Assembly (NCBI GenBank): GCA_019359155.1
Contig: JAHHHV010000013.1
Span: forward strand, 1-57,500
Source of the DNA: Pegethrix bostrychoides GSE-TBD4-15B
GTDB taxonomy: Bacteria; Cyanobacteriota; Cyanobacteriia; Elainellales; Elainellaceae
Length of the DNA stretch: 57,500 bases
Direction: 5' to 3'
Shown: positions 8,818-54,740 of the stretch, piece after piece
Numbering within the stretch: position 1 is the first letter of the stretch
Layout: each line of letters opens with the position of its first letter
Notes under the pieces: model-generated
What the model saw: the letters and a program-made list of their open reading frames with translations, nothing else
Databases searched by the model: none
Told to the model about the DNA's origin: nothing
Made by a program: the position numbers and the translations under genes

Positions 8818-9017
8818 CTGGGTGTTTCAGTCCTATAAACCCGATGCGAGCCCGAATTTAGCAGAAAGATGTCTTTCATTTTGCTGCGATTCACAAATAG
8901 ATCGGATATGATCACGAGCAAAGCAGTATTTGACAGCGAATGAGGCGATATTTTGTCTGCTGATTTCGAGCAGTTTTAATGCTGTGCCCCCCTGTGTCGA
9001 ATGGTTTGGAGAGGATC

Positions 9018-9299
9018 GTGACTATTTACGTTGGCAACCTGTCTTTTCAGGCGACTGAAGAAGATCTGCGAGAAGTGTTTGCTGAGTATGGCGAAGTGAG
9101 CCGAATTAGTTTGCCGACCGATCGGGAAACAGGCCGCAAACGAGGTTTTGCGTTTGTCGAAATGAAAGAAGATGCACAAGAAGATCAGGCGATCTCGGAG
9201 CTAGACGGAGCCGAATGGCTAGGCCGGGAAATTCGGGTAAATAAGGCCAAACCCCGTGAGGGTAGCGGCGGCGGCGGTGCTCGCAGAAGCGACTACTAA
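9018..9299 (+). CDS. RNA-binding protein with one RRM domain (Rbp type)
   Basis: A 93-residue protein of the cyanobacterial cold-responsive Rbp family. A single RRM fills most of it, with RNP2 (IYVGNLSF) at residues 3-10 and RNP1 (RGFAFVEM) about 30 residues later. A short glycine-rich, basic tail (SGGGGARRSDY) follows. These proteins bind single-stranded RNA and are often induced by cold, though that is known of the family and not shown here. I start at GTG 9018 because GGAGAGGAT lies just upstream, and because VTIYVGNL is how these proteins begin. An ATG at 8979 would add an unlikely 13-residue leader. Confidence 0.93.
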   Translation: MTIYVGNLSFQATEEDLREVFAEYGEVSRISLPTDRETGRKRGFAFVEMKEDAQEDQAISELDGAEWLGREIRVNKAKPREGSGGGGARRSDY

Positions 9300-9385
9300 A
9301 GCGGGTTGACCCACAGGAAAAATTGTGAGCCCCTTTGCTCAACTATCTGTTCAGCGAGGTTTAGCGTAAGTCTTGTAAGCTGTCC

Positions 9386-10879
9386 ATGTCTCGGATCCGC
9401 CTGATCAGTATCGCGGTCGGTATCCTGGTAGCATTGGGGCTAGTTGCAGGGCTTTTCGACTCTTTGCAGCGCCTCTATGCAGGTCTGGCGCTGATTTCGC
9501 CTTGGCTAGCTAGCCTGCTGCTCGTCTTGCTGGTAGCAGCGGTGATTGCGGCTTTAGCTGGGTTGGCCTACTATCTGGCAATATTTGGTCGCTCCCCATC
9601 TCGACCTCCAACGCCCAGCATCTCTGCCGATCGGTCTGAGGCAGCGCAAGAGAATCTGGTGGCCATGCGGCAGCAGGTCGCACAGATTCAGGATGAGGTG
9701 GTGCGGCAGGCATTGCTGGAGCAGTCCGAGGCGATCGAGCGCGATTTGTCACAGCAGGCTTTGACAGTCGTGGTGTTTGGGGTCGGATCGGCAGGCAAAA
9801 CCTCGCTGGTCAATGCCATTATGGGGCAGATTGTGGGCGAAGTGGGCGCGCCGATGGGCACAACCACGTACCAAAGGCAAACTTATCGACTCCAGCTTCA
9901 GGGGGCAAATCGCGAAATTCTGATTATCGACACGCCGGGCGTTCAGGAAACGGGGGCAGGCGGCAGCCAGCGTGAGCAGATCGCCAGACAGCTAGCCACC
10001 GACGCTGACCTGCTGCTATTTGTGATTGATAACGATCTGCGTCAGTCGGAATTTGAGCTACTGCAAACGCTGAACGAAATCGGCAAGCGGCTGCTGATTG
10101 TGTTCAACAAAGCCGATCTGTATCTCGAAGCCGATCAGCAGCAGATTTTAGAGCGGCTGCATCAACGCCTGCCGATTTTGGCCGAAGATCTGGTGGCGGT
10201 TGCGGCCAACCCTCGTCCCTTAATCCTGCCAGATGGCGAAGTTCAGCCTGAGCCTGAGATTTTGCCGCTCTTGACCCGGATGGCGGCAGTGCTGCGAGCA
10301 GAGGGCGAAGATCTGGTGGCGGACAATATTTTGCTACGTTCCCAGCGTTTAGGCGAAGAGACGCGCCGCTTGATCAACGCGCAGCGACAGCAACAGGCTG
10401 AGAAAATTGTGGAGCGATTTCAGTGGATTGGAGCCGGGGTCGTGGCGGCCACGCCGTTGCCAGGAGTTGATCTGCTGGCAACGGCAGCCATCAATGCTCA
10501 AATGGTAGTCGAGTTGGGGCAGGTTTATGACTGCGAAATGAATCTGGAGCGTGGCAAAGAGCTAGCTTTGTCGCTAGCCAAAACGCTGGTCAGTCTGGGT
10601 GTAGTGCGGGGCGCGATCGAGATTTTCTCGGTAGCTCTGCAAACCAACGTCGGCACTTTTTTGGTGGGGCGAGCCATTCAGGGCGTGACTGCCGCCTATT
10701 TGACTCGGATCGCAGGCAAAAGCTTCATCCAGTATTTTCAGCGCAACCAGAACTGGGGCGATGGCGGCATCAGCGAAGTGGTGCAGGAGCAGTTTCGCCT
10801 CAACCGCCGCGATCAGTTCGTCAAGGCATTTGTGCAAGAAGCGCTAGAGCGAGTCGTGAGACCACTGACCAATCAGTGA
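9386..10879 (+). CDS. membrane-anchored GTPase with C-terminal DUF697 domain
   Basis: A 497-residue protein. Two N-terminal membrane segments (about residues 5-25 and 38-66) are followed by a coiled region and then an Era-like G domain: P-loop GVGSAGKTS near residue 131, switch TTTYQ, G3 DTPG and G4 NKAD. The C-terminal part (AAAINAQMVVELGQVYD and on) matches the DUF697/YcjF-like domain common in cyanobacterial GTPases. The cellular role is unknown, and membrane-associated stress or envelope functions are only guesses. The gene converges with malQ, and the two stop regions overlap by seven bases. Confidence 0.87.
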   Translation: MSRIRLISIAVGILVALGLVAGLFDSLQRLYAGLALISPWLASLLLVLLVAAVIAALAGLAYYLAIFGRSPSRPPTPSISADRSEAAQENLVAMRQQVAQIQDEVVRQALLEQSEAIERDLSQQALTVVVFGVGSAGKTSLVNAIMGQIVGEVGAPMGTTTYQRQTYRLQLQGANREILIIDTPGVQETGAGGSQREQIARQLATDADLLLFVIDNDLRQSEFELLQTLNEIGKRLLIVFNKADLYLEADQQQILERLHQRLPILAEDLVAVAANPRPLILPDGEVQPEPEILPLLTRMAAVLRAEGEDLVADNILLRSQRLGEETRRLINAQRQQQAEKIVERFQWIGAGVVAATPLPGVDLLATAAINAQMVVELGQVYDCEMNLERGKELALSLAKTLVSLGVVRGAIEIFSVALQTNVGTFLVGRAIQGVTAAYLTRIAGKSFIQYFQRNQNWGDGGISEVVQEQFRLNRRDQFVKAFVQEALERVVRPLTNQ

Positions 10880-37288: not shown

Positions 37289-38281
37289 CTAGATAGAGCA
37301 GTCATGCCGCTTTTGCTGTTCAAGCATTGAGAGCGATAGCGTCTCGTATAGGCGCACTAAGATGCCGTTGTCAGGCGTAATTTGAATGGCTCGTTCAAGG
37401 TCGATCACGGCTTCTCTGAGGCGTTTGAGTCCAATCAAGACGATGGCTCGATTGGCAAAAATAGCTGCATCGTTAGGATTTAACTCCAGCGCTTTCGTGA
37501 AATCAGAGAGTGCGCTAGACAGATCGAGTAATTTATAGTGAACGACACCTCGATTCGACCAAAATACGGCGTTGTTTGGAGCTAGCCTCAAGGCGCGATT
37601 CAGATCCAGAATCGCTTGCTCAAACTGCTGAGTATCGCTGAGCAGACAGCTTCGATCCCAATATAGGAACGGGTTATCTGGTTCTTTGGCAATCGCCTGA
37701 TTGTAGAGTAGAAGAGCAAATTTAAGTACGTCAGTCTGGGTTTTACGCAGCGTGAAATCATCCCAGGGAATATTGACCGCCGCACAGAATTCGGACATAG
37801 TGCTAAACACCTTAAAGATACCCTGATGCAGCTCTTTGCGGGCAACGCCAGTCAGGCTGTAAGTCAAAGGCTGTGAATTGGCAGAAGCAGGAGCCGCAGC
37901 AATTTCAGGCTCTTTGGGCGAGAGCACAATCGTCTGATTAAGAAGCTGGCTGAAACACTGCGGATCAAGACGAATCGCCTGCCCAAAGTCAGCCGTTGAT
38001 CGCTCTGTTTCTCCCAGCTTGTTGTAGGTGAGTCCGCGATTGATATAGAGCGCAAACAGATTTGGCGCAAGTTCTAGAGCGCGACTCAGGTCGTTGAGCG
38101 CCTGCTGATAGCAGCCCTGAGTGTAGTAGACTGTAGCGCGATTGGCGTAGGCGCAGATTGAGCCTGAATCATGCTGGAGCGCAGCTGTGAATAAGCCAAT
38201 CGCGTTCTCTGTCTGACCATTTTGGAAATCGATAATGCCGCGTTCAATCAGCGAGCCAGCGATCAAGAGAGAATTTGTCAT
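37289..38281 (-). CDS. TPR-repeat protein at the end of the MacAB-like operon
   Basis: A 330-residue protein with TPR units in two blocks (about 10-115 and 200-315). They flank an unusual centre (EFCAAVNIPWDDFTLRKTQ) that is not TPR. There is no signal peptide. A strong ribosome site, AGGAGG, precedes the ATG. It is the last of five tightly spaced minus-strand genes after adaptor, permease, ATPase and the half-TPR protein, so it may help assemble or regulate that exporter. The function is inferred only from position. Confidence 0.82.
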   Translation of the reverse strand: MTNSLLIAGSLIERGIIDFQNGQTENAIGLFTAALQHDSGSICAYANRATVYYTQGCYQQALNDLSRALELAPNLFALYINRGLTYNKLGETERSTADFGQAIRLDPQCFSQLLNQTIVLSPKEPEIAAAPASANSQPLTYSLTGVARKELHQGIFKVFSTMSEFCAAVNIPWDDFTLRKTQTDVLKFALLLYNQAIAKEPDNPFLYWDRSCLLSDTQQFEQAILDLNRALRLAPNNAVFWSNRGVVHYKLLDLSSALSDFTKALELNPNDAAIFANRAIVLIGLKRLREAVIDLERAIQITPDNGILVRLYETLSLSMLEQQKRHDCSI

Positions 38282-38620: not shown

Positions 38621-39313
38621 TTAGTGAGCCAGCGTTGGACTATGGTGGTAAACATCCAGGATCAAACCGTCTCGAATATGCACAATCTGCTGAGTCTGCG
38701 CCGCAACATCTGGCTCATGGGTAACAATGACAATCGTGATGCCCTGCTGATTTAATGCAGTCAGTAAATCCATTACCTCCTGGGCTGTCTTCGTGTCGAG
38801 CGCGCCAGTCGGCTCATCGGCTAGCACTAGCGCGGGCTGGTTAATCAAGGCGCGGGCAATGGCCACCCGCTGCTGCTGTCCTCCCGAAAGCTGGTTGGGG
38901 CGGTTGTTGAGCCGATTGGCCAATCCCACCTGGCTCAGCACTTGGGCAGCGCGTTTTTGACGCTGGGGTTTAGGTATACCCGCATAGACCATCGGCAGCA
39001 TCACGTTTTCGAGTGCGGTCAGACGCGGCAGCAGATTAAACTGCTGGAACACAAACCCAATCTGCTGATTGCGAATATAGGCCAGCTCATCGTCGCTCAA
39101 AGTCGTTAAATCATCGCCTTCTAGCAGATAGCTGCCAGCCGTTGGGCGGTCTAGGCAGCCGATGATATTCATCAGCGTAGACTTGCCAGAGCCTGACGCA
39201 CCCATAATCGCCATATACTCACCCGTCTTAATTTCCAGGTTAATACCGCGTAGAACGGGCATCTCGACTTCTCCCAGATAGTAGGTTTTGGTAATGTTCT
39301 GAAGCTCAATCAT
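38621..39313 (-). CDS. ABC transporter ATPase, MacB/LolD type
   Basis: A 230-residue nucleotide-binding subunit. Walker A is GASGSGKST, the Q-loop is in [14 protein letters not shown], the signature is [15 protein letters not shown], Walker B is [13 protein letters not shown] and the switch histidine is in VTHEPDVA. This is the small ATPase type that pairs with MacB_PCD/FtsX permeases, and the permease is 27 bases upstream. In E. coli MacB the two domains are fused. Here they are separate. Confidence 0.94.
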
Positions 39314-39339
39314 GGCTTTATAAAAATAGACTGGCTCAT

Positions 39340-40662
39340 CTATTCACTCCGTAACGCCACAATTGGATCGAGTCGAGCTGCATTTTGAGCTGGGACAACC
39401 CCGGCGGCGAGTCCCACCGCGATCGATAGCGAGAAGCCTGCGACAATAGATTGAACCGAAATAATCAGGGGAATCTGAAAAGCGGTGGCGGCGGCAGCAG
39501 CTAGAACTATACCGCCGCCAATTCCAATGCTGCCGCCTACCGTAGAGACTAGAACGGCTTCAATTAAAAACTGGCTCTGAACTGTCTGATTGGTTGCGCC
39601 CAGCGCTTTGCGAAGGCCAACTTCTTTGGTGCGCTCCACTACCGTTACCAGCATAATATTGGCAATGCCAATGCCGCCTACCACCAGAGAAATTCCGGCC
39701 ACCGCCGATACCATTAGCGTTAAGGTGCTCATCACGGTGTTAAACGTATTGATAATATCAACCTGATTCGTGATATTGAAGTCATCGTCATCGGGTGGAT
39801 AAATGTTATGCCGCAGGCGCAGCAAATTCGTCACCTGAAATTGAGCGGTGTCCAGCTCCTCGCTGCTGTCGGTCAACAGCCATAATCCGGTGATTGCTGT
39901 CCCGGAGAGGGCATTGTTGCCCACGAGTTGCAGCGACATGTTAGTGAGCGGAATATAGACCATATCATCTTGATCTTGACTGCCGACCGCTCCTTTTGCT
40001 TCCATCACGCCAATCACCTGATAGCTCTTTTGCTGAATCCGAATCACTTCTCCCACGGGATCACGATTGCCAAACAGCTGGTCTCGCACTTTTGCTCCCA
40101 GCACCGCCACCGAGCGAGCGCTATCGAGATCGGCCTGCGTAAAAAATAGGCCAAACTCAGGATAGATATTTTTGACCTCAGAGTAATTGAGGTCGGTTCC
40201 AATAATCGTTGTAGATACATTCTCATCTCCATAGATTACCTGCACAGAGGGCTTTTGCAGATAGGCAGTCACCGCCTTCGCCACCGTCACCTGCTCGGCA
40301 ATCACTTCTGCATCTTCCCAAGTGAGCGTTGAGCTAGAACCTATTCCCTGGCTGATTCCCGCTTGAGTTTTAGAAGCGCCAGCCATTACCATCATCACGT
40401 TCGTTCCCAGAGCTTGAATCTGTTTCTCAGTCGATTTCTGCACGCCTTGACCAATCGAGGTAATGGCCACAACTGAACCAATGCCAATAATCATTCCCAG
40501 CATGGTCAAACCTGTGCGGAGTCGATTACTCAAGAGCGAATCAACCGCCATCTGGGTCACATCCAGCAATAAAGCTGAGCTAGATGCGGCAGATTTGGGT
40601 GCGGCAGGTTTGGATGCAGCAGATTTGGGTGGGACAGTTCTTCTCCACATATGATGTTTCAT
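39340..40662 (-). CDS. MacB-type ABC permease (FtsX family)
   Basis: A 440-residue inner-membrane subunit. One helix near residues 48-68 (LRTGLTMLGMIIGIGSVVAI) is followed by a large periplasmic MacB_PCD domain (to about 310) and three C-terminal helices with FtsX-type EVGLRKALGA. It transmits ATPase motion to a periplasmic adaptor, extruding macrolides, lipids or peptides. The N-terminus carries a low-complexity KSAASKPAAPKSAASSSA insert, coded by a local DNA repeat, that relatives lack. It begins six bases after the adaptor gene stop. Confidence 0.93.
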   Translation of the reverse strand: MKHHMWRRTVPPKSAASKPAAPKSAASSSALLLDVTQMAVDSLLSNRLRTGLTMLGMIIGIGSVVAITSIGQGVQKSTEKQIQALGTNVMMVMAGASKTQAGISQGIGSSSTLTWEDAEVIAEQVTVAKAVTAYLQKPSVQVIYGDENVSTTIIGTDLNYSEVKNIYPEFGLFFTQADLDSARSVAVLGAKVRDQLFGNRDPVGEVIRIQQKSYQVIGVMEAKGAVGSQDQDDMVYIPLTNMSLQLVGNNALSGTAITGLWLLTDSSEELDTAQFQVTNLLRLRHNIYPPDDDDFNITNQVDIINTFNTVMSTLTLMVSAVAGISLVVGGIGIANIMLVTVVERTKEVGLRKALGATNQTVQSQFLIEAVLVSTVGGSIGIGGGIVLAAAAATAFQIPLIISVQSIVAGFSLSIAVGLAAGVVPAQNAARLDPIVALRSE

Positions 40663-40668
40663 CTCGGT

Positions 40669-41976
40669 TCACGGCCTGCTGTCAAAGGGTGGAAACGCGA
40701 AGGACTTCGCAGACTTGGGCAACCCAATCAGCACCCGTTCATCGCCCTGCAAGCCTGAATAAGCCTCGGTCTGATTCCCCATTGTCAGACCCGTCTGAAT
40801 CGGCTGAAACTCAGTTTGATCATCATCTGACTGGATGTAAACACCCGTCTGGTTCTCTTGCCGCACAATCGCCACCGTGGGCACCATGACGGCATCCTCC
40901 AGCTTGCCCACCTGGAAATCCACAGAGACATTCATCCCAGAGCGCAGCAGTTCCTCTGGATCGACCAGGGAAACCTTGACTTCAAAGCTGGTGACGTTCT
41001 GCTGCACTGTAGACTGAGGCGCAATTTCGGCGACGGTTCCCGTAAAGGTTCGCCCTGGAAACGCATCGGCTTGAATTAGCGCAGTCTGCCCGACGCGCAG
41101 TCGTCCAATGCTGGTTTCGGGAACGTTTGCCACAATCCGATTTTTAGTGCCCAGCGCCAAGATTGAAGAAGAAGTGGCCGAATTTTCGGCGCTGGCTGCG
41201 GTGGTGGGCGCAACGAACGCACCCGGATCAGCATATTTTCGCACCACCGTGCCGCTAAACGGAGCGCGAATCACCATATCGTCTAGCTGAGACTGGATTT
41301 GATCAACCGCCCCCTGCGCTGCGGCCTCTGCGGCCTCTGCGGCCTGAATATCTTCGATGCGCGGCCCCGTTGTCTGGATCGTTAGACCTTCCCGTGCCTG
41401 CGCCACCTGCGCCTTTGCCGTCGCTCGCCGGGACTCAGAACCTGCCAGATCGCGGCGAGATAGTGCCCCATCTGCATAGAGAGCTTTGTCTTGCTCTAGG
41501 GTTAGCTCTGCTTCTTTTAGGACGGCATTGGCCTCGTCGAGTTTGGCTTGGGCTTCCGCAATCTCTTCCGGGCGATTGCCTGCCCGCAGCTTTTGCAGAT
41601 TGGCTGAGGCCGAGGCGAGATTGCCCGTCATTTGGGCGAGCTGACCGCGCAGATTCGAGTCATCCATTTCGGCAATGATCTGGCCAGCCTTGACCTGATC
41701 ACCCTCCCTCACCAGCAGTCGCTTCAGCAAGCCCGACGTTTTGGGGCTGACGTTAATCGATCGCTCTGGCTCGACCGATCCATTTGCCGTCACAACAATT
41801 GGTAGGGTTTGACGCTTCACCTGGACGGTTTCAGCCCCATCTTGAGTAACGGGATTGCGGATTGACTGCTGTATAGTCAGCAGCGTTCCGCCCGTTAGCG
41901 ACAGTAGCAGCAATCCCTGTATCCAGCGGCGGGCTGTAAAGAAATTGGATGGCGCAGTCCGCATTGTTTTTTGCAT
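40669..41976 (-). CDS. HlyD/MacA-type periplasmic adaptor protein
   Basis: A 435-residue membrane-fusion protein. A single N-terminal membrane anchor (IQGLLLLSLTGGTLLTIQQS) is followed by a lipoyl half-motif (VTANGSVEPERSINVSPKTS), a long alpha-hairpin (about 115-240), the second lipoyl half (MVIRAPFSGTVVRKYADPG), a beta-barrel and a membrane-proximal domain (MVPTVAIVRQENQTGVYI). It bridges the MacB-type permease and an outer-membrane channel such as TolC, which is not in the window. It is the first gene of the operon; the 134-base gap before it should hold the promoter. Confidence 0.92.
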   Translation of the reverse strand: MQKTMRTAPSNFFTARRWIQGLLLLSLTGGTLLTIQQSIRNPVTQDGAETVQVKRQTLPIVVTANGSVEPERSINVSPKTSGLLKRLLVREGDQVKAGQIIAEMDDSNLRGQLAQMTGNLASASANLQKLRAGNRPEEIAEAQAKLDEANAVLKEAELTLEQDKALYADGALSRRDLAGSESRRATAKAQVAQAREGLTIQTTGPRIEDIQAAEAAEAAAQGAVDQIQSQLDDMVIRAPFSGTVVRKYADPGAFVAPTTAASAENSATSSSILALGTKNRIVANVPETSIGRLRVGQTALIQADAFPGRTFTGTVAEIAPQSTVQQNVTSFEVKVSLVDPEELLRSGMNVSVDFQVGKLEDAVMVPTVAIVRQENQTGVYIQSDDDQTEFQPIQTGLTMGNQTEAYSGLQGDERVLIGLPKSAKSFAFPPFDSRP

Positions 41977-42110
41977 CGCTCTGGCACTCGTGAATCATTA
42001 GCCTTGATCTTAGGAAACTCGCTGAGCTGGCACATGGATCAAACTTCCTAAATCAGCTGCGACTAAAGTACCAGATTGAATACAAGCGAGACAAAAAACT
42101 AGATAGCAAA

Positions 42111-44240
42111 CTAGGGGCGCTGTCGATTCAGCAGTTCCTGCACATCGCGATCAGAGGTATAGCGGTAGCCAAAGGCCGCATCGCCAGACTCATCCAAAAT
42201 TTCGGGCGTGAGCAGCACGATCACCTCACGACGCTGATTGTTTTGGCTCGTGCTGCGGAATAGCGCTCCCAAAATCGGAATATCGCCCAAAATCGGCACT
42301 TTGGTAACGGTAGATCGATCAGAATCCTGGATAATCCCAGAGAGGATCAGCGTTTGGCCGTCGCGCAGCCGCACCTGTCCTGATTGCAGCGAGCGTGAGG
42401 AGAGCAGGGTGGTTAACGAGCCGTCCGGGTTTTCCTGCTGTCCTGCCGGAGCCGTGATTGTCGGCGCTACCGAAAGCGAGACAAAGCCATTGTCGTCGAT
42501 GCGGTCAATCGCCACAGCCAGCGTCAGTCCAGCGGCTCGCGGATCGTCCTGATCAAAGCTCACTACCTCGCCTGTATCGCTGAACGTGGTTGTGCCAGTC
42601 GTCGTCGAAACTTCCTCGGTAATCGCCACGGTTGCGGTCTGGCCTTCCTGCACCAGCAGGGTGGGATCAGTCAGCACTTGGGCGTTGCCTTCCTGGATTT
42701 GGGCGTTCAGCTCAGCCGCAAAGGCGTTGCGCGAGTTGCCCTCTGAACCCTCACCATTAAAGTCGTTAATATTTACCGTGAGTGCGCCCTGATTTGACTG
42801 CGTGAAGATATCGTTGATGCCAAACGAAAAGCTGCTGCTGAAGTCTTCAATTGCCGACAGATTGATATCAATCACCCGCACATTCACCGCCACCTGCCGC
42901 CGCCGCAGATCGAGCTGAACCAGTTGAGCGGTGGCAATGCGGATTTGCTCAGGCGAGCCAGCCAGCGTGATCATGTTGGTGCGCTCATCGCCAAATACCA
43001 GTAGTCCCCGCAAAGGCGGTGCTGAATCCTGATAGTCTACTCGCTGGGTTTCTAGCCGCTGCTCTGTGGTGGTCTGCGTTTGGGTCACGGCTGCTGGAAT
43101 CGCGGCGGTGTCCTCCTCAGATAGCGACTGCACTGCAACGGCATTGACGCTGGTGACTAAGCGCTCTCGGCTGACCGCGCTCTCGGCTCCCATTGCTACC
43201 AAAAAGTTGAGCGCTACGCCCACCTGCACCTGATTCACCCGCAGGCTGCGAACGGCCAAATTACGCGCCGCAGTTGGCAGCCGACTGCCCACAAAAATCG
43301 TCCGGCCTCTGCGGTTGGCCTCTAGCCCCACGAGCTGCAAAACCGAGTTAAATACGTTTTGAATCGACTCATTTTCGATATCCAAAGATACCGTAATCTC
43401 GCGGTTGGCCAGCGGATCGGCAGCATTGGTTACAGCATTGGTTGCAGCATTGGGTTCAGACTCAGGATCGCTAAAAGCTAGGTTGAGATCTGCCGCCCGC
43501 GCCAGCAGCGCCAGCACATCTTTGACAGGCGCATTGCGGAGCACCAGACGCGGCACGACTTCTGCTGTCTCCAGATTGACTAAGCCTGCTGAAGCATCTG
43601 TGGTCGCGACCGCAATATCTCCCACCGGAGGCGGAATTGCTCTCGGCAATGTATCTGGGAATGCATTTGGGACAGATCGCGCCGCACCTGGATTAGGGCT
43701 AAACGAAACAGCTGGATCGGGGACAAGCACGGCTGGATTGGGAACTGGACTAACGGCAGGACTGGTAGAAGGAGTAGCAGAAGGACTAGCAGCTGCTTGA
43801 TCAGGAATCGCGTAGACATTAAAGGTAATGCCTGGTTGACCTCGCCGAGTTAGCTCACCTGAAAGCGTCTGGGATTTACTCGTGACCACAATTCGCACAT
43901 TATCCGGCTCAAATTGGGTAACGACAATTGAGGCAATGCCGGGAGCGGGATTATTCTGCTCAAACGAATCTCCATCTGCCAAATCTAGCGTTGCATTCAC
44001 CAGATCAGCAGTCCAAACATTTTGGCGAGTTGCCATCAAAACCTGGGGCGGCTGCGGCATTTGGGCTGCTGACAGCACCAGTTCAAAGCCATCGCTAGTC
44101 GGCTGAATGGAGATAGCCTGAATCTTGACGGGAGCTGCCCAAACGGGCTGAGCCAGCCCCAGAATACTGCCCATTAAAACTGTTGACACGACTGCTGATA
44201 CTGCCGTTGGTACGGTCGGTAACGGATCACTCCAGATCAC
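42111..44240 (-). CDS. type IV pilus secretin PilQ family protein with AMIN domain
   Basis: A 709-residue outer-membrane secretin. It has a signal peptide (cleavage likely after VWA), an AMIN domain at about 38-140 (cell-wall binding), a low-complexity Pro/Ala/Ser linker (150-205), an STN/N-domain at about 230-265 (VPRLVLRNAPVKDVLALLAR), further N-domains and the secretin barrel with VPILGDIPILGALFRS near the end. The GTG start is well supported by GAGGAG just upstream. Cyanobacterial pilQ usually follows pilMNO. Here a two-component pair stands upstream instead, so this could be a second copy or a relocated pilQ. I withhold a gene symbol for that reason. Confidence 0.88.
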   Translation of the reverse strand: MIWSDPLPTVPTAVSAVVSTVLMGSILGLAQPVWAAPVKIQAISIQPTSDGFELVLSAAQMPQPPQVLMATRQNVWTADLVNATLDLADGDSFEQNNPAPGIASIVVTQFEPDNVRIVVTSKSQTLSGELTRRGQPGITFNVYAIPDQAAASPSATPSTSPAVSPVPNPAVLVPDPAVSFSPNPGAARSVPNAFPDTLPRAIPPPVGDIAVATTDASAGLVNLETAEVVPRLVLRNAPVKDVLALLARAADLNLAFSDPESEPNAATNAVTNAADPLANREITVSLDIENESIQNVFNSVLQLVGLEANRRGRTIFVGSRLPTAARNLAVRSLRVNQVQVGVALNFLVAMGAESAVSRERLVTSVNAVAVQSLSEEDTAAIPAAVTQTQTTTEQRLETQRVDYQDSAPPLRGLLVFGDERTNMITLAGSPEQIRIATAQLVQLDLRRRQVAVNVRVIDINLSAIEDFSSSFSFGINDIFTQSNQGALTVNINDFNGEGSEGNSRNAFAAELNAQIQEGNAQVLTDPTLLVQEGQTATVAITEEVSTTTGTTTFSDTGEVVSFDQDDPRAAGLTLAVAIDRIDDNGFVSLSVAPTITAPAGQQENPDGSLTTLLSSRSLQSGQVRLRDGQTLILSGIIQDSDRSTVTKVPILGDIPILGALFRSTSQNNQRREVIVLLTPEILDESGDAAFGYRYTSDRDVQELLNRQRP

Positions 44241-44299: not shown

Positions 44300-44411
44300 G
44301 TCAGTCCAGCATGGAGCAAAAGTCCCAGGTCGATTAGTCCTATAGTCTCAAGTCAGCCTTGGCGCAATCGGGACTATAGAGCTAGACCGCGAAGGCAAGG
44401 TAGGACTTTAG
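44300..44411. promoter_or_regulatory. cluster of GGACT(A/T)TAG motifs upstream of the secretin gene
   Basis: Within 112 bases there are AAAGTCCCA, TAGTCCTATAGTCTC, GGGACTATAG and TAGGACTTTAG, all variants of one half-site on either strand. The cluster sits 60-170 bases upstream of the secretin start and just beyond the response-regulator stop. The same 11-mer TAGGACTTTAG recurs at 46597 and 48380. A binding site of the neighbouring NarL-type or LuxR-type regulator is likely, but this is inference. Confidence 0.55.
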
Positions 44412-44439
44412 GGCGATGGCAATTTTGCACAAGCCCGAT

Positions 44440-45126
44440 TTAATCAAGCTTGAGCTGCGGTAAAAATGTATTGGCCAAGATGGCGGCCTGGGTGCGATCT
44501 CGCAAATTTAAGCGGTTCAAGATGCTGGTAACGTGATTTTTGACAGTTCGCACTGAAATAAACAGCTTTTCAGCAATTTCCTGATTGCTCGACCCGGTTG
44601 CAATGAGCTGCAACACTTCACGCTCTCTGGGGGTCAGCTCCGCTAGTTCTGGCGGCAAGCTAGCCGTCGGAACTGACGGAGCTACTGGAGCCGAAACCTC
44701 ATTAGAGACGAGAACCGTAGGCATCAGCGCTTTCTCAAACAGCCCTGGCCCTAGATGCGTATAGCCCTTATGGATGGCTCGAACAGCTTCTGCCACCTCA
44801 TCTGAAAGCGTATCTTTGAGTAAATAGCCTCTAGCGCCAAACCGCATGGCTTGGAGCAAATATTCATCATCATCAAAAGTCGTCAGCACCAGCACTTTCA
44901 CAGTCGGAAATCGCTGATTGATCTGCTGAATTGCGGTCACGCCGTCCATCACCGGCATGCGAATATCCATCAGCACGACATCTGGCTGCAAGGCTGCCAC
45001 CTGTGCCAGTGCCGTTTGGCCATTATCAGCATCACCTACCACAGCAATATCTGGCTTTGTATCCAGCAGACTTTTAAGTCCTTGCCGAATAATGGCCTGA
45101 TCATCAACGAGCAGTACGCGAATCAT
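44440..45126 (-). CDS. NarL/LuxR-family response regulator
   Basis: A 228-residue two-domain regulator. The receiver domain has the acidic pair in LLVDDQ, phosphoacceptor Asp54 in [13 protein letters not shown], a conserved Thr in [11 protein letters not shown] and Lys in GYLLKD. A Pro/Val-rich linker leads to a LuxR-type helix-turn-helix ([38 protein letters not shown]). Its gene begins five bases after the histidine kinase stop, so the two form a cognate pair. Confidence 0.95.
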
Positions 45127-45131
45127 GGAAC

Positions 45132-46391
45132 TTATCCGGGTAAGAGATCGGGTAAAGGAATCGACACAGTGATATAGCAGCCGTGATTGGGTTGAGCAAT
45201 CAGCGTAAACTGACCGCCCAACGCCATGGTGCGCTCGCGGATTCCTTGCAGGCCAAATCCCGTTCTGTTCAGGCTTGGGTCGAAGCCACAGCCGTTGTCA
45301 GCCACGACGAGAATCAACTCTCGATCTATAGATCGCAGCTGTACTTTGACACGAGTTGCTGAACTGTGCTTATATGTATTTACTAACGCTTCTTGAATGA
45401 TTCGACAGACAACAATGCTAACTTCAGCAGGGACGGCTGCATTGAGATCAAATAAATAGTCGAGCTGCACCGCTGAACTTTGCTGGAACTCCTGCACCGC
45501 AGTCGTAATAGCCTGCTCTAGCGTCTGGCCTTTAGTGGAGCGAGACCGTAATGTGGAGACTGACTGCCGCACCTCTTGCAGCGACTTCGAGCAGAGCTGC
45601 TTGGCCTGAGTCAAGAACATCTGCGTTTTTTCGGCCTCGGCAGGGCAGAACAGCAGCGCATTTTCCAATTGAATACTCTGAGCTGTCAGCGTATGCCCTA
45701 AGGCATCGTGAATCTCGCGCGCAATTCGGTTCCGTTCTTGAAGCGTTGCCTGATTTTCGATCTGCGCGGCATAGCGCTGAAGCTGCTCATGAGCCGTGGC
45801 CAAATCCTTGCGACTCTGGCGTTCTGCAAGCAGATGATTGACGAGCAGCATTACGGAGGTGAGCACCAGCCCAAATGAAAGACCCCCATGAAACTTTAAG
45901 AGCAAGATTGTGTTTTCAGAAGATAAGGACTGAGGAGTGTTTGTATCTCTGACTGAATTTAGAACTGAAGTCATAAACTGATCCATCGGGCCACTCTTGT
46001 TAAAGAAGAGTACTGCAAGTGTAAAGGCCAAGCAGACCACAATCAATTGTCCCAACGGCTTAAACATTTGGCTGCTGCGGATTGCAATCAGCATGACCAG
46101 AATTGGAATGGTGCGATTCTGACCCGTCACCAGAATTGGCAGCAGCATCAAGCCGAACTCTAAAGCGGTATACAGAATCTTAGAGAGCGTCTGGCTGGGC
46201 AACCGCAGCCCCATCATCCCTAGTCCAACTGTGCAGAGCAGCTCCAGAGCTGAGAACTGGATAAAAGGCTGGAGCGGAACGGGCATGACAGCTGTTACCA
46301 ACGCCATGCCCAGCAGAAGCCATTCTAAATAGAGCAGCAGACGGAACGGGCGGCTGGGTGCTGGCATAAGCTGACGAGCAGAGATTTTCAT
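45132..46391 (-). CDS. NarL-partner sensor histidine kinase (HisKA_3 type)
   Basis: A 419-residue membrane kinase. About six N-terminal helices (20-190) have short loops only, so it probably senses something in or near the membrane. A coiled-coil linker, an H-box with His228 in [15 protein letters not shown] and an ATPase domain with DNGCGFD and [11 protein letters not shown] follow. This is the DesK/NarX-type dimerisation family. It is the first gene of the pair with the regulator at 44440. Confidence 0.93.
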
Positions 46392-46597
46392 CCGGTAAGT
46401 TAAAAAGCGACAATACCGCAGTCTGAAGCGGTTGTCCTCTAGTGTATTTGACTGGCACGAATTATTCCCAGTGTGAAATGTCCTAATCTTTCCCGTCCAG
46501 CCTGGTACTTTAGTCTCATTTTACTGAGTCTAGCTAGAAATATTCACCCTGCTTCTCTGCACACTCGCTCTCTAAACCTGCTGCCCCGGACAGTTCT

Positions 46598-46611
46598 AGG
46601 ACTTTAGTCCT
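46598..46611. promoter_or_regulatory. perfect palindrome AGGACTTTAGTCCT in the divergent kinase/LuxR region
   Basis: This dyad (AGGAC-TTTA-GTCCT) contains the 11-mer TAGGACTTTAG shared with 44401 and 48380. It lies about 107 bases before the small LuxR gene and 207 before the kinase gene. A degenerate partner (TACTTTAGTCTC) is at 46505. The remainder of the 326-base region (46392-46717) shows no gene. Confidence 0.55.
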
Positions 46612-46717
46612 GTCGCATTTGGGACATTTGCCTCATGTGCTGTAAGTCTCTCAGCCTCTATAGTTTTTCTATGGAAATTCCACGATTTTCTCTATCCAAG
46701 GCTTGTCAGGTTCGCTG

Positions 46718-47011
46718 ATGTTGAAAGCTCCCACCATCCTAAATTGGTTTGCTATGAAGTCAAACAAAACGCAACAAGAATTCTACTGTCGAGATTTGCG
46801 ATCCAATCAATATCCGTTTCACCTCTCGCATCGAGAACAGGAAGTGCTGAAACTGCTTGTAGAAGGGCACAGCAACAGTGAAATGGCAACTCTGCTTCAC
46901 CTCAGCGTCAGCACAATCAAAACTTATATTCGCAGTCTGATGAACAAATTTGCAGTTGAGCATCGCATCCAGATTGCGGTATTTGCAGTTCGTCACCAAA
47001 TGGTCGAGTGA
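46718..47011 (+). CDS. small LuxR-type DNA-binding protein
   Basis: A 97-residue protein that is little more than a LuxR helix-turn-helix (LSHREQEVLKLLVEGHSNSE, then LLHLSVSTIKTYIRSLMNKF). There is no receiver or ligand-binding domain. Such stand-alone domains can bind DNA as dimers without phosphorylation or act as partners of larger regulators. I chose ATG 46718. A TTG at 46703 and an internal ATG at 46754 are alternatives. It is transcribed divergently from the two-component pair and towards three exported-protein genes. Confidence 0.85.
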   Translation: MLKAPTILNWFAMKSNKTQQEFYCRDLRSNQYPFHLSHREQEVLKLLVEGHSNSEMATLLHLSVSTIKTYIRSLMNKFAVEHRIQIAVFAVRHQMVE

Positions 47012-47095
47012 ATGGTTGAGTAATCTGTAGAACTCATTAATCTTGCGCTTGAATATCCTACGGATACAGACGAGTCAACTTATGGAGATGTAAAC

Positions 47096-47557
47096 ATGAA
47101 GACAATTCGTGCCAACCTATGGGTATATCCGCTGCTGAGCGCTGCTGTAGCTCTCATGGGTTTACCTGTTTCAGCAGAGCCATCATCAATCACCGTCAAC
47201 GTGACCGGAGTTCACTCCCAGTCGGGATCGGTCATGGTTTGCCTGTGGCGACAGCAAGACAAGGATTTCCCGGTTTGTTCGAGCACTGCGGCAATGCAGT
47301 ACATCACGGCTCAGTCAAATAATGCAAGCGCTACCGTGACATTTCAGAATGTTCCAGCTGGCGAATACGCGGTTTCGGCCTTTCACGATGAGAACCAAAA
47401 CGGCACGCTGGATCGAGGCTTCATGGGTAGACCTGAAGAGGGGATTGGGTTTTCCAACATGACGGCTCAGGGAGGACAGGGGCGACCAACGTTTGACAAG
47501 GCAAAATTTACAGTGAATGGTCAGAAGTCGATTGCTCTATCACTCTTGTACTTCTAA
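47096..47557 (+). CDS. exported DUF2141 protein
   Basis: A 153-residue protein with a signal peptide (cleavage likely after VSA, residue 27) and the beta-sandwich pattern of DUF2141: ITVNVTGVHSQSGSVMVCLW, VPAGEYAVSAFHDENQNGTL and the acidic-aromatic segment GIGFSNM. Two cysteines (in MVCLW and PVCSS) could pair. The family is common in envelopes of bacteria, with no firm function. ATG 47096 lies 84 bases after the LuxR gene, and a terminator follows at 47572, so the two may form one unit. Confidence 0.85.
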   Translation: MKTIRANLWVYPLLSAAVALMGLPVSAEPSSITVNVTGVHSQSGSVMVCLWRQQDKDFPVCSSTAAMQYITAQSNNASATVTFQNVPAGEYAVSAFHDENQNGTLDRGFMGRPEEGIGFSNMTAQGGQGRPTFDKAKFTVNGQKSIALSLLYF

Positions 47558-47571
47558 AGTTTCATGGATTT

Positions 47572-47595
47572 GCAAAAACGTTTTGCTTTTATTCG
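47572..47595 (+). terminator. terminator after the DUF2141 gene
   Basis: GCAAAA, a short loop and TTTTGC are followed by TTTTATT. A second inverted repeat (CGAGAATTC with GAATTCTCG) follows at 47599-47624. Confidence 0.6.
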
Positions 47596-47708
47596 CATCG
47601 AGAATTCACAGTTGAGAATTCTCGATTCTTATCGTCTAGCTTCTTATTCTGACGCGACTTAACAGATTCAATCACTTTCAATCACTTCTGACATCTTACC
47701 AAAACCAC

Positions 47709-48341
47709 ATGCTCCACCCTTCGACTCGGTTGTTTTCGATGGCTCTCAATATGGCTCTAATTCTGACATTGGGGGAGCAAGTCGTTCAAGCTCAATCTTC
47801 GCAGACCGCAGTCAATGCTGAAACTTCTTCTCGTCTAGCTCAACCCTCGCCGTCACCTGATGTAACACCATCTGATGTAACACCATCTGATGCGACACCA
47901 TCTGATGAAACTGCTGAACCGACTGAGTCGCGCCAACCGCGTAACTTCATTGGCGTGGGCGGCAGTATTGGACTGAGCGGTGAAGATATAGGGCTGAGCG
48001 AAAGTGGGTTCGCCATTATGAATAGAAAAGACCTGAATGACAGATTGTCAATTCGAGGCGCTAATGTATTTGGCAGTACTCGGAACGATAATACAATAGC
48101 GCTAACCGTCAACTTTCCAGTTCGATCTAGCTCTGGAGAAACGCAGTTGATCCCTTTTGTGGGCGGGGGTCTACTGATTTCGTCAAAGGGTCTGTTTAAC
48201 GATGTGCTTGTGCGCGGACTAGCAACCGGAGGCATTGATGTTCCGCTCTCCCGTCGATTTACCGCCACCAGTGCCGTCAACGTCGGATTCACTGACCCGG
48301 TCGCTGTAGGTGTAGGACTAGGCGTAATGTACGGATTCTAG
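47709..48341 (+). CDS. probable outer-membrane beta-barrel protein
   Basis: A 210-residue protein. A signal peptide (cleavage likely after VQA, residue 28) is followed by a TPSD-repeat linker (50-68, coded by a 15-base DNA repeat at 47858-47911) and about eight amphipathic strands (NFIGVGGSIGLSG, NTIALTVNFPV, TQLIPFVGGGLLISS). It ends in GVGLGVMYGF, and a C-terminal Phe is the usual signal for outer-membrane assembly. It is the second of three exported proteins in a row. No specific family recognised. Confidence 0.7.
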   Translation: MLHPSTRLFSMALNMALILTLGEQVVQAQSSQTAVNAETSSRLAQPSPSPDVTPSDVTPSDATPSDETAEPTESRQPRNFIGVGGSIGLSGEDIGLSESGFAIMNRKDLNDRLSIRGANVFGSTRNDNTIALTVNFPVRSSSGETQLIPFVGGGLLISSKGLFNDVLVRGLATGGIDVPLSRRFTATSAVNVGFTDPVAVGVGLGVMYGF

Positions 48342-48379
48342 AGCTTGAGCTAAAAGTTCTGTTTTGAACACCGCTGAGC

Positions 48380-48390
48380 CTAAAGTCCTA
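48380..48390 (-). promoter_or_regulatory. third copy of TAGGACTTTAG, before the CX11C protein gene
   Basis: On the minus strand this reads TTCTAGGACTTTAG, identical over 14 bases to the copy at 46594-46607. It is about 100 bases upstream of the gene at 48488, a distance like that at the small LuxR gene. Confidence 0.5.
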
Positions 48391-48487
48391 GAAGCGATTT
48401 AGGGCTGGAGGCTCATGCAGGCGAGCAACAGTCGAGCTTAGAGTAGAGGCATCAGAGATGACAATATACGCAGAGAGGAATTAAATC

Positions 48488-48964
48488 ATGCGGTTAATTT
48501 CAAAGACATCACCTTTGCTGGTAGTGTCTCTCAGCCTAATATCCGGCATGTATGACCCGGCTTTCGCTGACAGCCTAAGAAGCGCTTGGGGTCGCCATTC
48601 TGCCAATCAAGACACTCCTAGCGTCATCAATCGCTCTATTCCATTACAAGCACAGTCTCTGCCTTTTCCGCCCTTTAGAGATGAACATAGAAATTTTGAA
48701 GAGGATGTCCAAGACTGTTATGCTGAGAACAGCCGCCGCGATCGCAAGGAATGCTTCAAAGACCTACGCCGCGATCAAGCTGATAGTCGAGAAGAAATAG
48801 AAGCAGATCTCCAAGACTGTTTTGACGAAGACGATCGGGATGATCGTCAAGACTGCCTGGAAGATTTGCAGGATGATGAACGCAACAGCTGGAATCGCTC
48901 TCGACCCGGCTGGAGTCCAATCAGTCCGCCTAGACCAACATCGCGAAACAGAGATTTCTGGTAG
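48488..48964 (+). CDS. exported acidic protein with twin CX11C repeats
   Basis: A 158-residue protein with a signal peptide (cleavage likely after AFA, residue 27). Two copies of a 34-residue unit occupy 70-137 (VQDCYAENSRRDRKECFKDL and LQDCFDEDDRDDRQDCLEDL). Each has cysteines spaced CX11C (77/89 and 111/123) between charged helices. Helical hairpins pinned by disulfides, or a metal-binding surface, would fit. The tail is Pro/Arg-rich. I know of no named family. It is third in the exported-protein series and has a TAGGACTTTAG motif upstream. Confidence 0.7.
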   Translation: MRLISKTSPLLVVSLSLISGMYDPAFADSLRSAWGRHSANQDTPSVINRSIPLQAQSLPFPPFRDEHRNFEEDVQDCYAENSRRDRKECFKDLRRDQADSREEIEADLQDCFDEDDRDDRQDCLEDLQDDERNSWNRSRPGWSPISPPRPTSRNRDFW

Positions 48965-48989: not shown

Positions 48990-49440
48990 GCAGAGTAAAG
49001 TTCTTGACCCCAAATTTTCGCACCGTTCCACCCAACGATTGGAACGCTCAATCACCCAACGCACTGCCACAGGCACAAACTCTGTTTCCCTTGCGCTGCC
49101 TTCTTTTCCCTTGCGCTGCCTTCTCTGATTTCGAGAGTTTCGCTGACACTTCAAACTAAATCTTGCTCATAATCTCTGGATAAACCTGCTCTAGCGCCTT
49201 CTGTACTTTCTCACAATGCTAGCTAGAGTCGAGCATCATCGTCGTTTTGGCTAGTTCTAGAGGTTTCTGCTGAACGTCGTCAATCTGGTGAGCGAGCATC
49301 TCAATAGCCCCTTGCTGATCAGTGACATTGGCACGGGTGCAGTGAGTAAAAAACGGCAATCCTAGACTATCGACTGCCAGATGCTGGTATAATCCCGTTC
49401 GTCGCTTTGTAGCAACAGCAGTCCTTTGATGGCGCGACTG
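48990..49440 (-). pseudogene. decayed transposase remnant
   Basis: Read on the minus strand, the sequence gives LYQHLAVDSLGLPFFTHCTR, then DQQGAIEMLAHQIDD, TTMMLDSS and stop, VYPEIMSKI and stop, and in another frame FVPVAVRWVIERSNRWVERC. This is the C-terminal half of a DDE transposase of a type common in cyanobacteria (IS5-like). It has two in-frame stops and a frameshift next to a roughly 20-base tandem duplication (TTCCCTTGCGCTGCC at about 49084 and 49104). The N-terminal half is gone. Nothing else is coded in 48965-49653. Confidence 0.8.
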
Positions 49441-52721: not shown

Positions 52722-54740
52722 CTAGATTTGCAAAATCCCCTCTGGATTGACCGATAGAATGGGGCGGCGCTGGAGTCCTTCGCGATGCAGGGCTTCGTTG
52801 GCGGCTAAGAGGCCGCTGCTGACAGCACGCTCCATCAGGCCGCAGGGAAACGGCATTTTTACCCAGTCTCCCGCGAACAGCAGATTGCCAATCGCGCTGC
52901 TGGTTTCGGGACGGGCGGCGTAGCTGTTGGGCGGGTAGCCTGAGAAGTTTTTCTGATTGACTAGCTCGCGGTGCAGCAGCTCGGCCTGCCGTAAGTCGGG
53001 CACGATTTCGTATAGCTCTCGCTCAAAAGTAGCTAGTAAATCGGCCTGAGTGGGAAACTCTTTTTCCTTGTAACAGTAGGCATGCAGCTCCACAACGCTG
53101 CCGCCAGTGCGCCCCGCCCATTCGATAAACTGCGCTTGAATCCGGTGGTAGAGCGTGATGCTGTCGGTGAGCTGGTAGCCGGAGAGCGAAGTAAAGTCGC
53201 TATGCGTCCAGTCAAAGTCGCGGTCAAACCAGAAGCGGCAAACCGCAAACGGATCGGCAATCGCCAAGCCCTCGATCTGCTGCTGGAGGGCAACAGGCGC
53301 ACCCACCATCCGCGTCGAGAGCTGCTGCACCCCTGGGACATCGGTGGCGATCACGTAGTAGTCGGCTTCTAGAGTCTGCGCGGTTTGTCCAGTCGGCGAT
53401 GGGACGGAGGCTGTGCCCGCCAGCTGGATCTGCTCGTCTTGGCGTTGCAGAATCTTGAACCGGGGCAAATCACGCTCAGCAGGCGCTTTGACAACGCGCC
53501 CCTCCGCATCAAAAATCGCGCCGTGGCAGGGACAGTGAAACAGCCCGTCGGCCTGTGGCTGCACCGTACAGCCCTGATGCGTGCAGGTGAGCGAGATCGC
53601 CTCTTCGCCGTTGGCAGTAACCGCATACATCTGGTCGCCTGCGCCGTAGTAAGGACTGCTGGAATTCTCCGGCAGAGCCGCAGATATTGGAGCAAACAAC
53701 GGGTTGGGCGTCACCCAAAACGGTACAGCACTGGCGGCATTTCCGGTTTCGTACTGCACTGACTGAATCTGATTCTCGGCACAGTCAATTTGGCTCACCG
53801 AGGCGCTGGTGATAATCTGGCCGCCGTTGGCAAGGATCGCCTGCGCCATTGGCTCCACCAGCGAAGTACCCATATCCTGCTTCGTGCCGTTGAAGGCTAG
53901 CCCTTCCGGATTGCCAAAGAAATAAAAGTGGAAGAACTGCATCAGCTCAGCCGCACTCATCAGGTCGGGCGCGTTCAGGCTGGACTTGGCAAAGGGTAAA
54001 AAGTAGAGGTCGTAGAGTCCCTGCGGAAAGTCGTCGGCCACCCAGTCCGAAACCGAAAGGTGATCGAGCTGCTGGTAGCTTTTTTGGGCGTTGAAGCCGC
54101 TGATGGCGCGAAACACCTGCCAGTGCTTAGGATGTGTCAGGTTGATGCCCCACTGTAGGCGGTTGGGCGAAGAGATGGCTAAATCGACAATGTTCCAGGG
54201 GAAAGCCGAATGGCTAGGCCGGAACACCTCCGGTTGGTACTGCTGCTTAAACACCACCGAATAGGACTTTAGATCCACAAAATTATCTTCAGCGCCCAAC
54301 TCGCTCACCAGGCTTTTGAGGTTGTAATACTGTGGGAAAAAGCCGTGAAACCCGTGCTCCATCCGAAACTGCTCGTCACCCACCTGAATAGTCCAGCTGG
54401 CAATCTTGCCCCCCAGCTGCGGCGAACGCTCCAGCAGCGTCACGGCAAATCCGCGCTGGCTCAGCTCGTAGGCCGAGGCCAAACCTGCTAAGCCGCCGCC
54501 GATCACGACTGCCGTTTTGGGGCTGCTGAGGCGATAGGGCAGCGTCAGGCGGTCGGGCTGATGCACCGTCGGCTGGGGCTTGCTAAAGCGCGAATAGCCC
54601 AGCAGACTCACGCCAGCCCCAACGCCTGCTAGCTTCAGCAGGGTGCGGCGAGAAACTTGGGGGAAGGGTAGTTCTGATTGCTGTGGGGATTCTGAGGATG
54701 GCTGAACGGATGGCTGAAAAATTGGCTGGTCTTGACTCAC
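52722..54740 (-). CDS. Tat-exported FAD oxidoreductase with inserted Rieske domain
   Basis: A 672-residue enzyme of the phytoene-desaturase/amine-oxidase fold. Residues 30-50 hold a twin-arginine signal (SRRTLLKLAGVGAGVSLLGY). The FAD-binding motif VVIGGGLAGLASAYELSQRG follows at about 78, and GLMERAVSSG near the C-terminus closes the FAD domain. Between them, at about 365-430, sits a Rieske 2Fe-2S domain with CTHQGC and CPCHGAIFD (ligands Cys386, His388, Cys403, His406; disulfide pair 391/405). From memory, CrtU/CruE-like carotenoid aromatases of green sulfur bacteria and cyanobacteria combine similar parts, but the substrate here is uncertain. GTG start with GAGGAG upstream. Confidence 0.85.
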   Translation of the reverse strand: MSQDQPIFQPSVQPSSESPQQSELPFPQVSRRTLLKLAGVGAGVSLLGYSRFSKPQPTVHQPDRLTLPYRLSSPKTAVVIGGGLAGLASAYELSQRGFAVTLLERSPQLGGKIASWTIQVGDEQFRMEHGFHGFFPQYYNLKSLVSELGAEDNFVDLKSYSVVFKQQYQPEVFRPSHSAFPWNIVDLAISSPNRLQWGINLTHPKHWQVFRAISGFNAQKSYQQLDHLSVSDWVADDFPQGLYDLYFLPFAKSSLNAPDLMSAAELMQFFHFYFFGNPEGLAFNGTKQDMGTSLVEPMAQAILANGGQIITSASVSQIDCAENQIQSVQYETGNAASAVPFWVTPNPLFAPISAALPENSSSPYYGAGDQMYAVTANGEEAISLTCTHQGCTVQPQADGLFHCPCHGAIFDAEGRVVKAPAERDLPRFKILQRQDEQIQLAGTASVPSPTGQTAQTLEADYYVIATDVPGVQQLSTRMVGAPVALQQQIEGLAIADPFAVCRFWFDRDFDWTHSDFTSLSGYQLTDSITLYHRIQAQFIEWAGRTGGSVVELHAYCYKEKEFPTQADLLATFERELYEIVPDLRQAELLHRELVNQKNFSGYPPNSYAARPETSSAIGNLLFAGDWVKMPFPCGLMERAVSSGLLAANEALHREGLQRRPILSVNPEGILQI

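Follow-up and report, generated by a model that had tools for sequence, protein, structure and literature searches.

The window analysed here is the entire 57,500 nucleotide contig C13 of the cyanobacterium Pegethrix bostrychoides GSE-TBD4-15B, in which gene families were assigned with Pfam and NCBIfam. On its minus strand lies a HisKA_3 histidine kinase gene (45132–46391), followed after five bases by that of its presumed cognate, a NarL/LuxR-type response regulator (44440–45126) with receiver and GerE domains and the recognition helix RTVKNH. The kinase has hydrophobic N-terminal segments (residues 15–190), and Pfam at E 0.001 finds HisKA_3 and HATPase_c in it and no other domain. The same strand carries a stand-alone PilQ-like gene with AMIN, STN and secretin domains (42111–44240) and an exporter operon (38621–41976), which begins with a HlyD/MacA-like adaptor (40669–41976) and continues with a MacB-type permease containing MacB_PCD and FtsX domains (39340–40662) and an ABC ATPase (38621–39313). 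Divergent from the kinase, on the plus strand, is the gene for a small LuxR/GerE protein of 102 amino acids (46703–47011). A first-pass annotation of this DNA had spoken of a kinase/LuxR pair; the operon partner of the kinase is the response regulator. Candidate operators read from the sequence, their conservation, a correlation between operator base and recognition helix, and gene linkage make it likely that this is an envelope-stress-type two-component system controlling itself, a MacAB-type exporter and the stand-alone PilQ-like secretin.

The 11-mer TAGGACTTTAG, which the first-pass annotation took as the mark of a local regulon, was found by a motif scan at 44401, 46597 and 54262 on the plus strand and at 48380 on the minus strand, just where it had been placed. 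The copies at 44401, 46597 and 48380 are intergenic and the copy at 54262 is within open reading frame (ORF) 52722–54740. Allowing one mismatch added no copy in the window; shuffled windows had a mean of 0.46 at up to one mismatch, and four were reached in 0 of 100. The full palindrome described at 46597/46598 is present, and the 46597 and 48380 copies share, by reading, the 14 bases TTCTAGGACTTTAG. The copies are unequal in strength. They were scored, along with the rest of the window, using an operator matrix built on 11 relatives with 14 operators between them (ten of the relatives with arginine or lysine, R/K, in the helix position considered below, and L011, where no regulator was read), from which the window was excluded.

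The highest scoring match is TAGGACTTTAGTCCTG at 46597–46612 (score 24.5), with its core GGACTTTAGTCC at 46599–46610, between the divergent kinase and small LuxR genes. This main candidate operator is centred approximately 98 bp before the small LuxR gene if that gene starts at TTG, and 113 bp before it if at the ATG 46718. The next two are sites that were absent from the first-pass annotation. One, TGCGACTAAAGTACCA at 42058–42073 (19.2; palindrome 42060–42071), is the candidate operator of the exporter operon, centred about 90 bp before the adaptor start at 41976. The other, TGGTACTTTAGTCTCA at 46503–46518 (16.1; palindrome 46505–46516), is a second candidate in the kinase intergenic region, centred about 120 bp from the kinase start, and forms a 14-nt direct repeat (86%) with the main site. 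The scores of these three were unmatched in 20 simulated windows. The copy at 54262–54277, inside an ORF, is fourth-best in the window (14.0) and is probably there by chance. A matrix match of 11.5 is also seen at 45960–45975, within the kinase gene.

The secretin is preceded by the 11-mer copy TAGGACTTTAGGGCGA at 44401–44416, which has one good half-site and one poor half, and by three weaker palindromic copies, at 44312 (5.2), 44335 and 44369, that had not been noted before. The 44401 copy scores 4.5, the tenth and last listed, with 1.4 such matches expected per window. The copy TAGTCCTATAGTCTCA at 44335–44350 (9.2, with 0.45 expected per window) is centred about 102 bp before the secretin start and is the probable secretin operator. 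This spacing nearly equals the 99 bp of relatives and favours 44335 over 44401, whose low score likewise speaks against it as the main site of the secretin. The copy CGGGACTATAGAGCTA at 44369–44384 (8.5) is the arm of an inverted repeat (44335–44384) with the 44335 copy. The third intergenic 11-mer copy, TGAGCCTAAAGTCCTA at 48375–48390 (10.3), has its centre about 105 bp before the gene for a CX11C protein (48488–48964, plus strand), for which neither Pfam nor NCBIfam gives a family.

The bases of the 48375 site also form an arm of an RNA hairpin, the inverted repeat 48375–48415. The fold of 48365–48425, directly behind the stop of ORF 47709–48341, has −29 kcal/mol and a z of −4.1, with 0 of 200 shuffles as stable. 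Instead of operators, the copies at 48380 and 44335/44369 may be RNA hairpins that act as terminators or stabilising stems; the odds of this are a little below even. Although both places have inverted repeats, a terminator scan that requires a T-run lists neither of them, and the fold at 44325–44395 has a z of only −1.9, with 10 of 200 shuffles equally stable. Operators are also found upstream of the closest secretin orthologs, and the 48375 site is near the 99 bp spacing of relatives. Across the window, scans listed 7 promoters where shuffles gave 5.0 and 4 terminators where shuffles gave 6.2, numbers close to background, and Rfam gave no matches at gathering scores. The 48375 site is therefore a possible operator by its spacing, yet an ambiguous one in that the same bases make the hairpin. 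Membership of the CX11C protein in the regulon, as first proposed, fits the spacing; the hairpin and the lack of relatives of this protein in the other 35 of the 36 genomes of the order set count against it.

Relatives of the kinase were found in 28 of the 36 genomes of the order set at E 1e-30 and in at least 54 of the 386 genomes of a phylum set at E 1e-65, with the first four candidates per genome scored. Upstream regions were compared in 94 kinase loci with 400 bp before the predicted kinase start, the window and its two paralogs included. The commonest 8-mer in these upstream regions, found de novo, is ACTAAAGT/ACTTTAGT, in 53 of the 94 loci as against 1 of 94 coding regions. The form ACTWWAGT is present within 400 bp upstream of 54 of the 94 kinases; the corresponding figures are 3 of 94 for coding sequence and 1 of 92 for regions far upstream, and seven scrambled palindromes were found in 0–7 of the 94 upstream regions. 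Upstream of the kinases of L009, L010, L042 and, with relaxed matching, L013, there are two palindromes 23–24 bp apart, slightly more than two helical turns, which suggests two dimers side by side. For LiaR and VraR, primary and secondary sites have been reported (PMC7191749). Four loci with the helix NTVKNY (L086, L089, L091 and L100) share TGTGACTTTTTTCCTA upstream of the kinase in place of the palindrome, possibly an altered operator.

In most of the 80 named loci, the best 80 of a longer list, the gene divergent from the kinase encodes an exported-looking protein of approximately 135–200 amino acids with repeated LTxxQ. One minus-strand ORF of 120–205 amino acids was taken per locus from the first two upstream ORFs, giving 60 neighbours, with none from the other 20 loci. 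At E 0.01, Pfam LTXXQ is matched by 53 of these 60 (22.0 for the one given in full, below the cut-off of 24.3) and the NCBIfam Spy model by 51 (the one given being far below its cut-off), and the profile retrieves E. coli Spy structures. Strict sites and upstream genes are present in 44 named loci. No more than 600 bp from the site, 41 of these have a divergent gene, which in most cases, though not in all, is the LTxxQ one. Taking the first start codon of each ORF as its start, the distance from site centre to divergent gene has a median of 99 bp (quartiles 96–103.5, range 10–396) in these 41 loci, and that to the kinase start has quartiles of 110.5–244.5 bp, with the divergent gene being the closer in 33 of the 41. 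L136 has an additional palindrome, some 65 bp ahead of another LTxxQ ORF, and the kinase of L139 has an LTxxQ ORF as its divergent neighbour. In relatives the operator occupies the stretch shared by the kinase and a divergent gene, usually Spy/CpxP-like, and keeps an almost constant distance from that gene. An envelope-stress response is therefore the most probable role of the system, whose local targets would have been exchanged in the window.

VraR, an envelope-stress regulator, is the nearest solved homolog of the window regulator (E 6.9e-47), followed by DevR (2.1e-36), NarL and DesR. This ranking, a kinase with HisKA_3 and HATPase_c alone, and neighbours that are Spy/CpxP-like and export genes make a DosR-like response to hypoxia or redox, instead of envelope stress, unlikely, despite alignable contact residues and an operator core identical to that of the DosR test oligo (the gel-shift oligo TTGGGGACTAAAGTCCCTAA contains GGACTAAAGTCC; PMC5999986).

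An alignment made with HMMER sets the RTVKNH of the window regulator opposite the KTVKNY of DevR. In DosR, K179, K182 and N183 are reported as core DNA-binding residues, with K182 contacting A12 and G13 of the site (PMC5999986). The helix residue and operator base were counted in 179 loci, of which 171 are unique and 146 allowed the helix to be read and had 300 bp or more of upstream sequence. Among strict-site loci, 16 of the 18 with R/K at the 179 position carry G at operator position −2, and the other two, both with R, are ties. All 68 Gly loci carry T, the two loci with Ser are ties and none is contrary; the Fisher values for this correlation take no account of descent. Kinase paralogs within one genome carry the operator class that matches their helix (L010 and L035 in G007, L008 and L034 in G016). 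At the 182 position the strict core is found in 88 of 136 loci with K and in 0 of 10 with R, again uncorrected for descent, and the possible loss of the strict core with R at this position is a lead only, as no other site emerged for these loci.

Since the base at −2 follows its recognition-helix residue, the response regulator 44440–45126 is the most likely binder of the palindrome. This covariation favours it over the small LuxR protein 46703–47011, which has a GerE domain, is encoded beside the site with the site centre about 98 bp before its TTG start, and might itself bind the palindrome and regulate its neighbours. That arrangement is quite improbable. Matches to the small LuxR protein above 55 bits number two in 99 neighbourhoods, one in L174 at the position of the response regulator's own gene and one in L166 at 7 kb from the kinase, although operators are common in those 99 loci. 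Other motifs are reported for cyanobacterial members of the same domain family, GTNCGGK for Rre1 and RWWTRGGYNNYY for PedR (PMC13421787), and PedR is a one-component protein of the LuxR family.

The genome, of 5,724,334 bases, has 5 copies of the 11-mer, of which 4 are in the window (a reversed control word has 3), and the exact 12-mer palindrome GGACTWWAGTCC has a single copy, at 46599. The 11-mer is thus locally clustered and is not a dispersed high-copy repeat, and a HIP1-like repeat is ruled out by these counts. That the copies reflect such a repeat, or chance, is very improbable given these counts and the way the site recurs ahead of kinases across many genomes, and is refuted for 46597, 42058 and 46503, even if the 54262 copy is coding, 44401 and 48380 match the palindrome poorly, near-palindromes are found elsewhere, and chance may still account for 54262 and 44401. 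The functional unit is, on this evidence, the palindrome, about RGKACTWWAGTMCY, with the 11-mer being a fragment or one half of it. The local regulon first proposed is supported for the autoregulated two-component system and the secretin by palindromes upstream of related kinases and of the secretin orthologs L267 and L268; the 11-mer as its element is not.

Broader counts gave no genome-wide excess of the palindrome over reversed control words, which differ from it in composition. The 10-mer GACTTTAGTC, related to the 11-mer, was counted 5 times and its control 23 times. With up to two mismatches allowed, GGACTWWAGTCC gave 293 places and its control 996; with up to one allowed, GKACTWWAGTMC gave 35, including 42060, 46505 and 46599, and its control 159. 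One of the GACTTTAGTC places, C77:85163, lies shortly before the gene of a paralogous kinase (C77:83856–85034, minus strand). Of the 35 near-palindromes, 26 were inspected and the mis-centred C13:798 was set aside; no common theme was seen among the 25 that were placed. One of these (C61:2050/2058) is between two ORFs, one of which is UvrA-like by eye, and another (C25:6429) is between two further ORFs. A near-palindrome at C47:12335 is near a region (L141, approximately 8282–10182) with repeated FQSPCGEMVVK and VSVPLRGNGRE translations, resembling a read-through CRISPR array.

Upstream sequences were surveyed for 30 of 40 adaptor matches and 30 of 33 secretin matches across the order, with L265 and L279 having almost no upstream sequence. 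Operators are found upstream of the window adaptor and its three closest HlyD orthologs (L237, L238 and L239, with 58–59% identity), and not of the 26 more distant adaptor homologs examined, where the best score is 4.8. Likewise, they are found upstream of the window secretin and its two closest orthologs, L267 and L268, and not of the 27 other secretin homologs examined. Exporter operon and kinase are transcribed away from each other on either side of the palindrome in G005, G007, G016 and G119. The secretin is linked to the two-component system in G000, G014 and G015; in G014 it lies across the palindrome from the kinase, in divergent orientation, and G015 repeats the secretin-regulator-kinase order of the window. 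The conservation of these sites supports the inclusion in the predicted regulon of the exporter operon, which the first-pass annotation did not list. The second secretin of the genome, on contig C92, is preceded by ORFs of 374, 284 and 249 amino acids that are laid out like pilMNO, as judged by eye, and for this reason the window secretin is seen as the stand-alone paralog.

Among the named loci with enough flanking sequence, 5 of the 15 with R/K have exporter genes within 6.5 kb and none of the 36 with Gly does, so that exporter linkage belongs to the R branch. Exporter genes lie downstream of an LTxxQ gene, and on its strand, in L169, L205 and L211, with a strict operator in none of the three. 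The strict operator accompanies exporter linkage in part, namely in the window, G005, G007, G016, G119 and L159.

Several observations weigh against the regulon as proposed. The secretin-side sites of the window are weak (9.2, 8.5, 5.2 and 4.5). Of the five exporter-linked R/K loci, L159 is the only one with a strict operator, which is missing from L163, L169 and L211 (helix RTVRNH) and from L214 (RTVKAH). The strict core is missing within 500 bp in 11 of 28 loci with the helix RTVKN; among these, relaxed matches are found in L007 and L013 and weakly in L059, and none in L016 or L106. In a quick tree of 51 regulators, based on receiver and linker, helix and operator class change just twice each, and together, which is too few changes for a descent-corrected test. 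There is no LTXXQ gene at the window locus, and a genome search with PF07813 at E 0.001 was negative, although an LTxxQ-rich ORF is seen beside the Gly-class paralogous kinase on contig C65. Lastly, of the 25 placed near-palindromes out of the 35 of GKACTWWAGTMC, 15 are intergenic and 10 are in ORFs by a crude ORF call. Those beyond the window may mean that the regulon is wider or that the other copies are due to chance.

In the proposed mechanism, the membrane kinase 45132–46391 would sense an envelope signal and phosphorylate the regulator 44440–45126, a dimer of which would dock on palindromes of the RGKACTWWAGTMCY type. Docking at 46597 and 46503 would activate the kinase/regulator operon and probably also the divergent small LuxR gene, at 42058 the HlyD-MacB-ABC exporter operon, and at 44335/44369 the stand-alone PilQ-like secretin. 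In other cyanobacteria the regulator would activate the divergent target genes together with its own operon. We infer binding from the operators, and phosphotransfer, activation rather than repression, and the stimulus from VraR/LiaR and from gene content.

More tentatively, and with a likelihood well short of even, the locus may represent a widespread and apparently undescribed cyanobacterial envelope-stress system with a Cpx-like layout and LiaRS/DosR-type parts. Its helix residue (R/K or Gly) would set the outer operator base and so separate the paralogs of one cell, and in some lineages the system would have come to control a MacAB-type exporter together with a dedicated PilQ-like secretin, possibly the outer-membrane exit of that exporter. 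Regulators with R in the helix would prefer GGACTWWAGTCC and those with Gly TGACTWWAGTCA. Among the top-ranked open-access literature matches for the palindrome, for LTXXQ/Spy/CpxP and for NarL-type systems, no description was found of an LTXXQ-linked HisKA_3/NarL system or its operator in cyanobacteria. For a system seen in many filamentous cyanobacteria, the analysis names the regulator, supplies an operator that can be tested, shows that promoter spacing is nearly fixed and offers a specificity rule based on one residue; it also suggests what the output of the system is.

A DUF2141 protein is encoded at 47096–47557, and the product of 47709–48341 has no family in Pfam or NCBIfam; a relative of the latter is beside the exporter operon in G119 (L135, 53% over 148 amino acids) and a weaker one is in L206. 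A TPR protein (37289–38281) downstream of the exporter operon adjoins the exporter in G005 and G007 also, at 46% and 41% identity. A short tandem duplication, cccttgcgctgccttct twice, was seen by eye at approximately 49080–49130.

Among known systems, the exporter resembles MacAB-TolC in having a HlyD/MacA-like adaptor, a MacB_PCD/FtsX permease and an ABC ATPase, and differs in that the ATPase is a separate polypeptide and that a secretin gene adjoins the exporter. It is described as MacAB-type, and not MacAB proper, because the NCBIfam equivalog cut-offs were missed (72.6 of 342 for MacA; 221.6 for the permease and 292.2 for the ATPase, of 966, for MacB). The secretin has the AMIN, STN and secretin domains of PilQ of type IV pili, whereas its gene is outside a pilMNO-like cluster and, in the three genomes named above, is linked to the two-component system.

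The sensor operons of CpxRA-CpxP and BaeSR-Spy in E. coli are divergent from an LTXXQ periplasmic protein. The relatives of the window kinase share this layout, with a common regulatory region between the two. Cpx and Bae have OmpR-type regulators and HisKA kinases, whereas here a NarL-type regulator goes with a HisKA_3 kinase and the window locus is without the LTXXQ gene. The parts resemble LiaRS/VraSR of the Firmicutes, which are envelope-stress regulators with a HisKA_3-type kinase and a NarL regulator, and VraR provides the nearest structures. The VraR motif is a palindrome with ACT/AGT half-sites. The targets differ, as does the sequence reported for LiaR, ATAcGACtcccgGTCtTAT (PMC7191749). 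A LiaRS ortholog is rejected, with the kinase scoring 102.7 bits against an NCBIfam LiaS cut-off of 450; family scans of ten window proteins, to which the search for LiaF was confined, gave no LiaF.

The partner of DosR/DevR in Mycobacterium tuberculosis is a GAF-domain kinase responsive to hypoxia and NO. The DosR system is actinobacterial, and differs from that of the window in this input, in kinase architecture and in targets. A DosR ortholog was rejected in that the window kinase is without a sensor domain of the DosR-partner type (Pfam E 0.001) and has N-terminal hydrophobic segments. DosR has served as a template for DNA binding by DegU (PMC9263151). What the DosR system and that of the window have in common is a NarL-family regulator, the operator core GGACTWWAGTCC and a K/R-T-V-K-N recognition helix.

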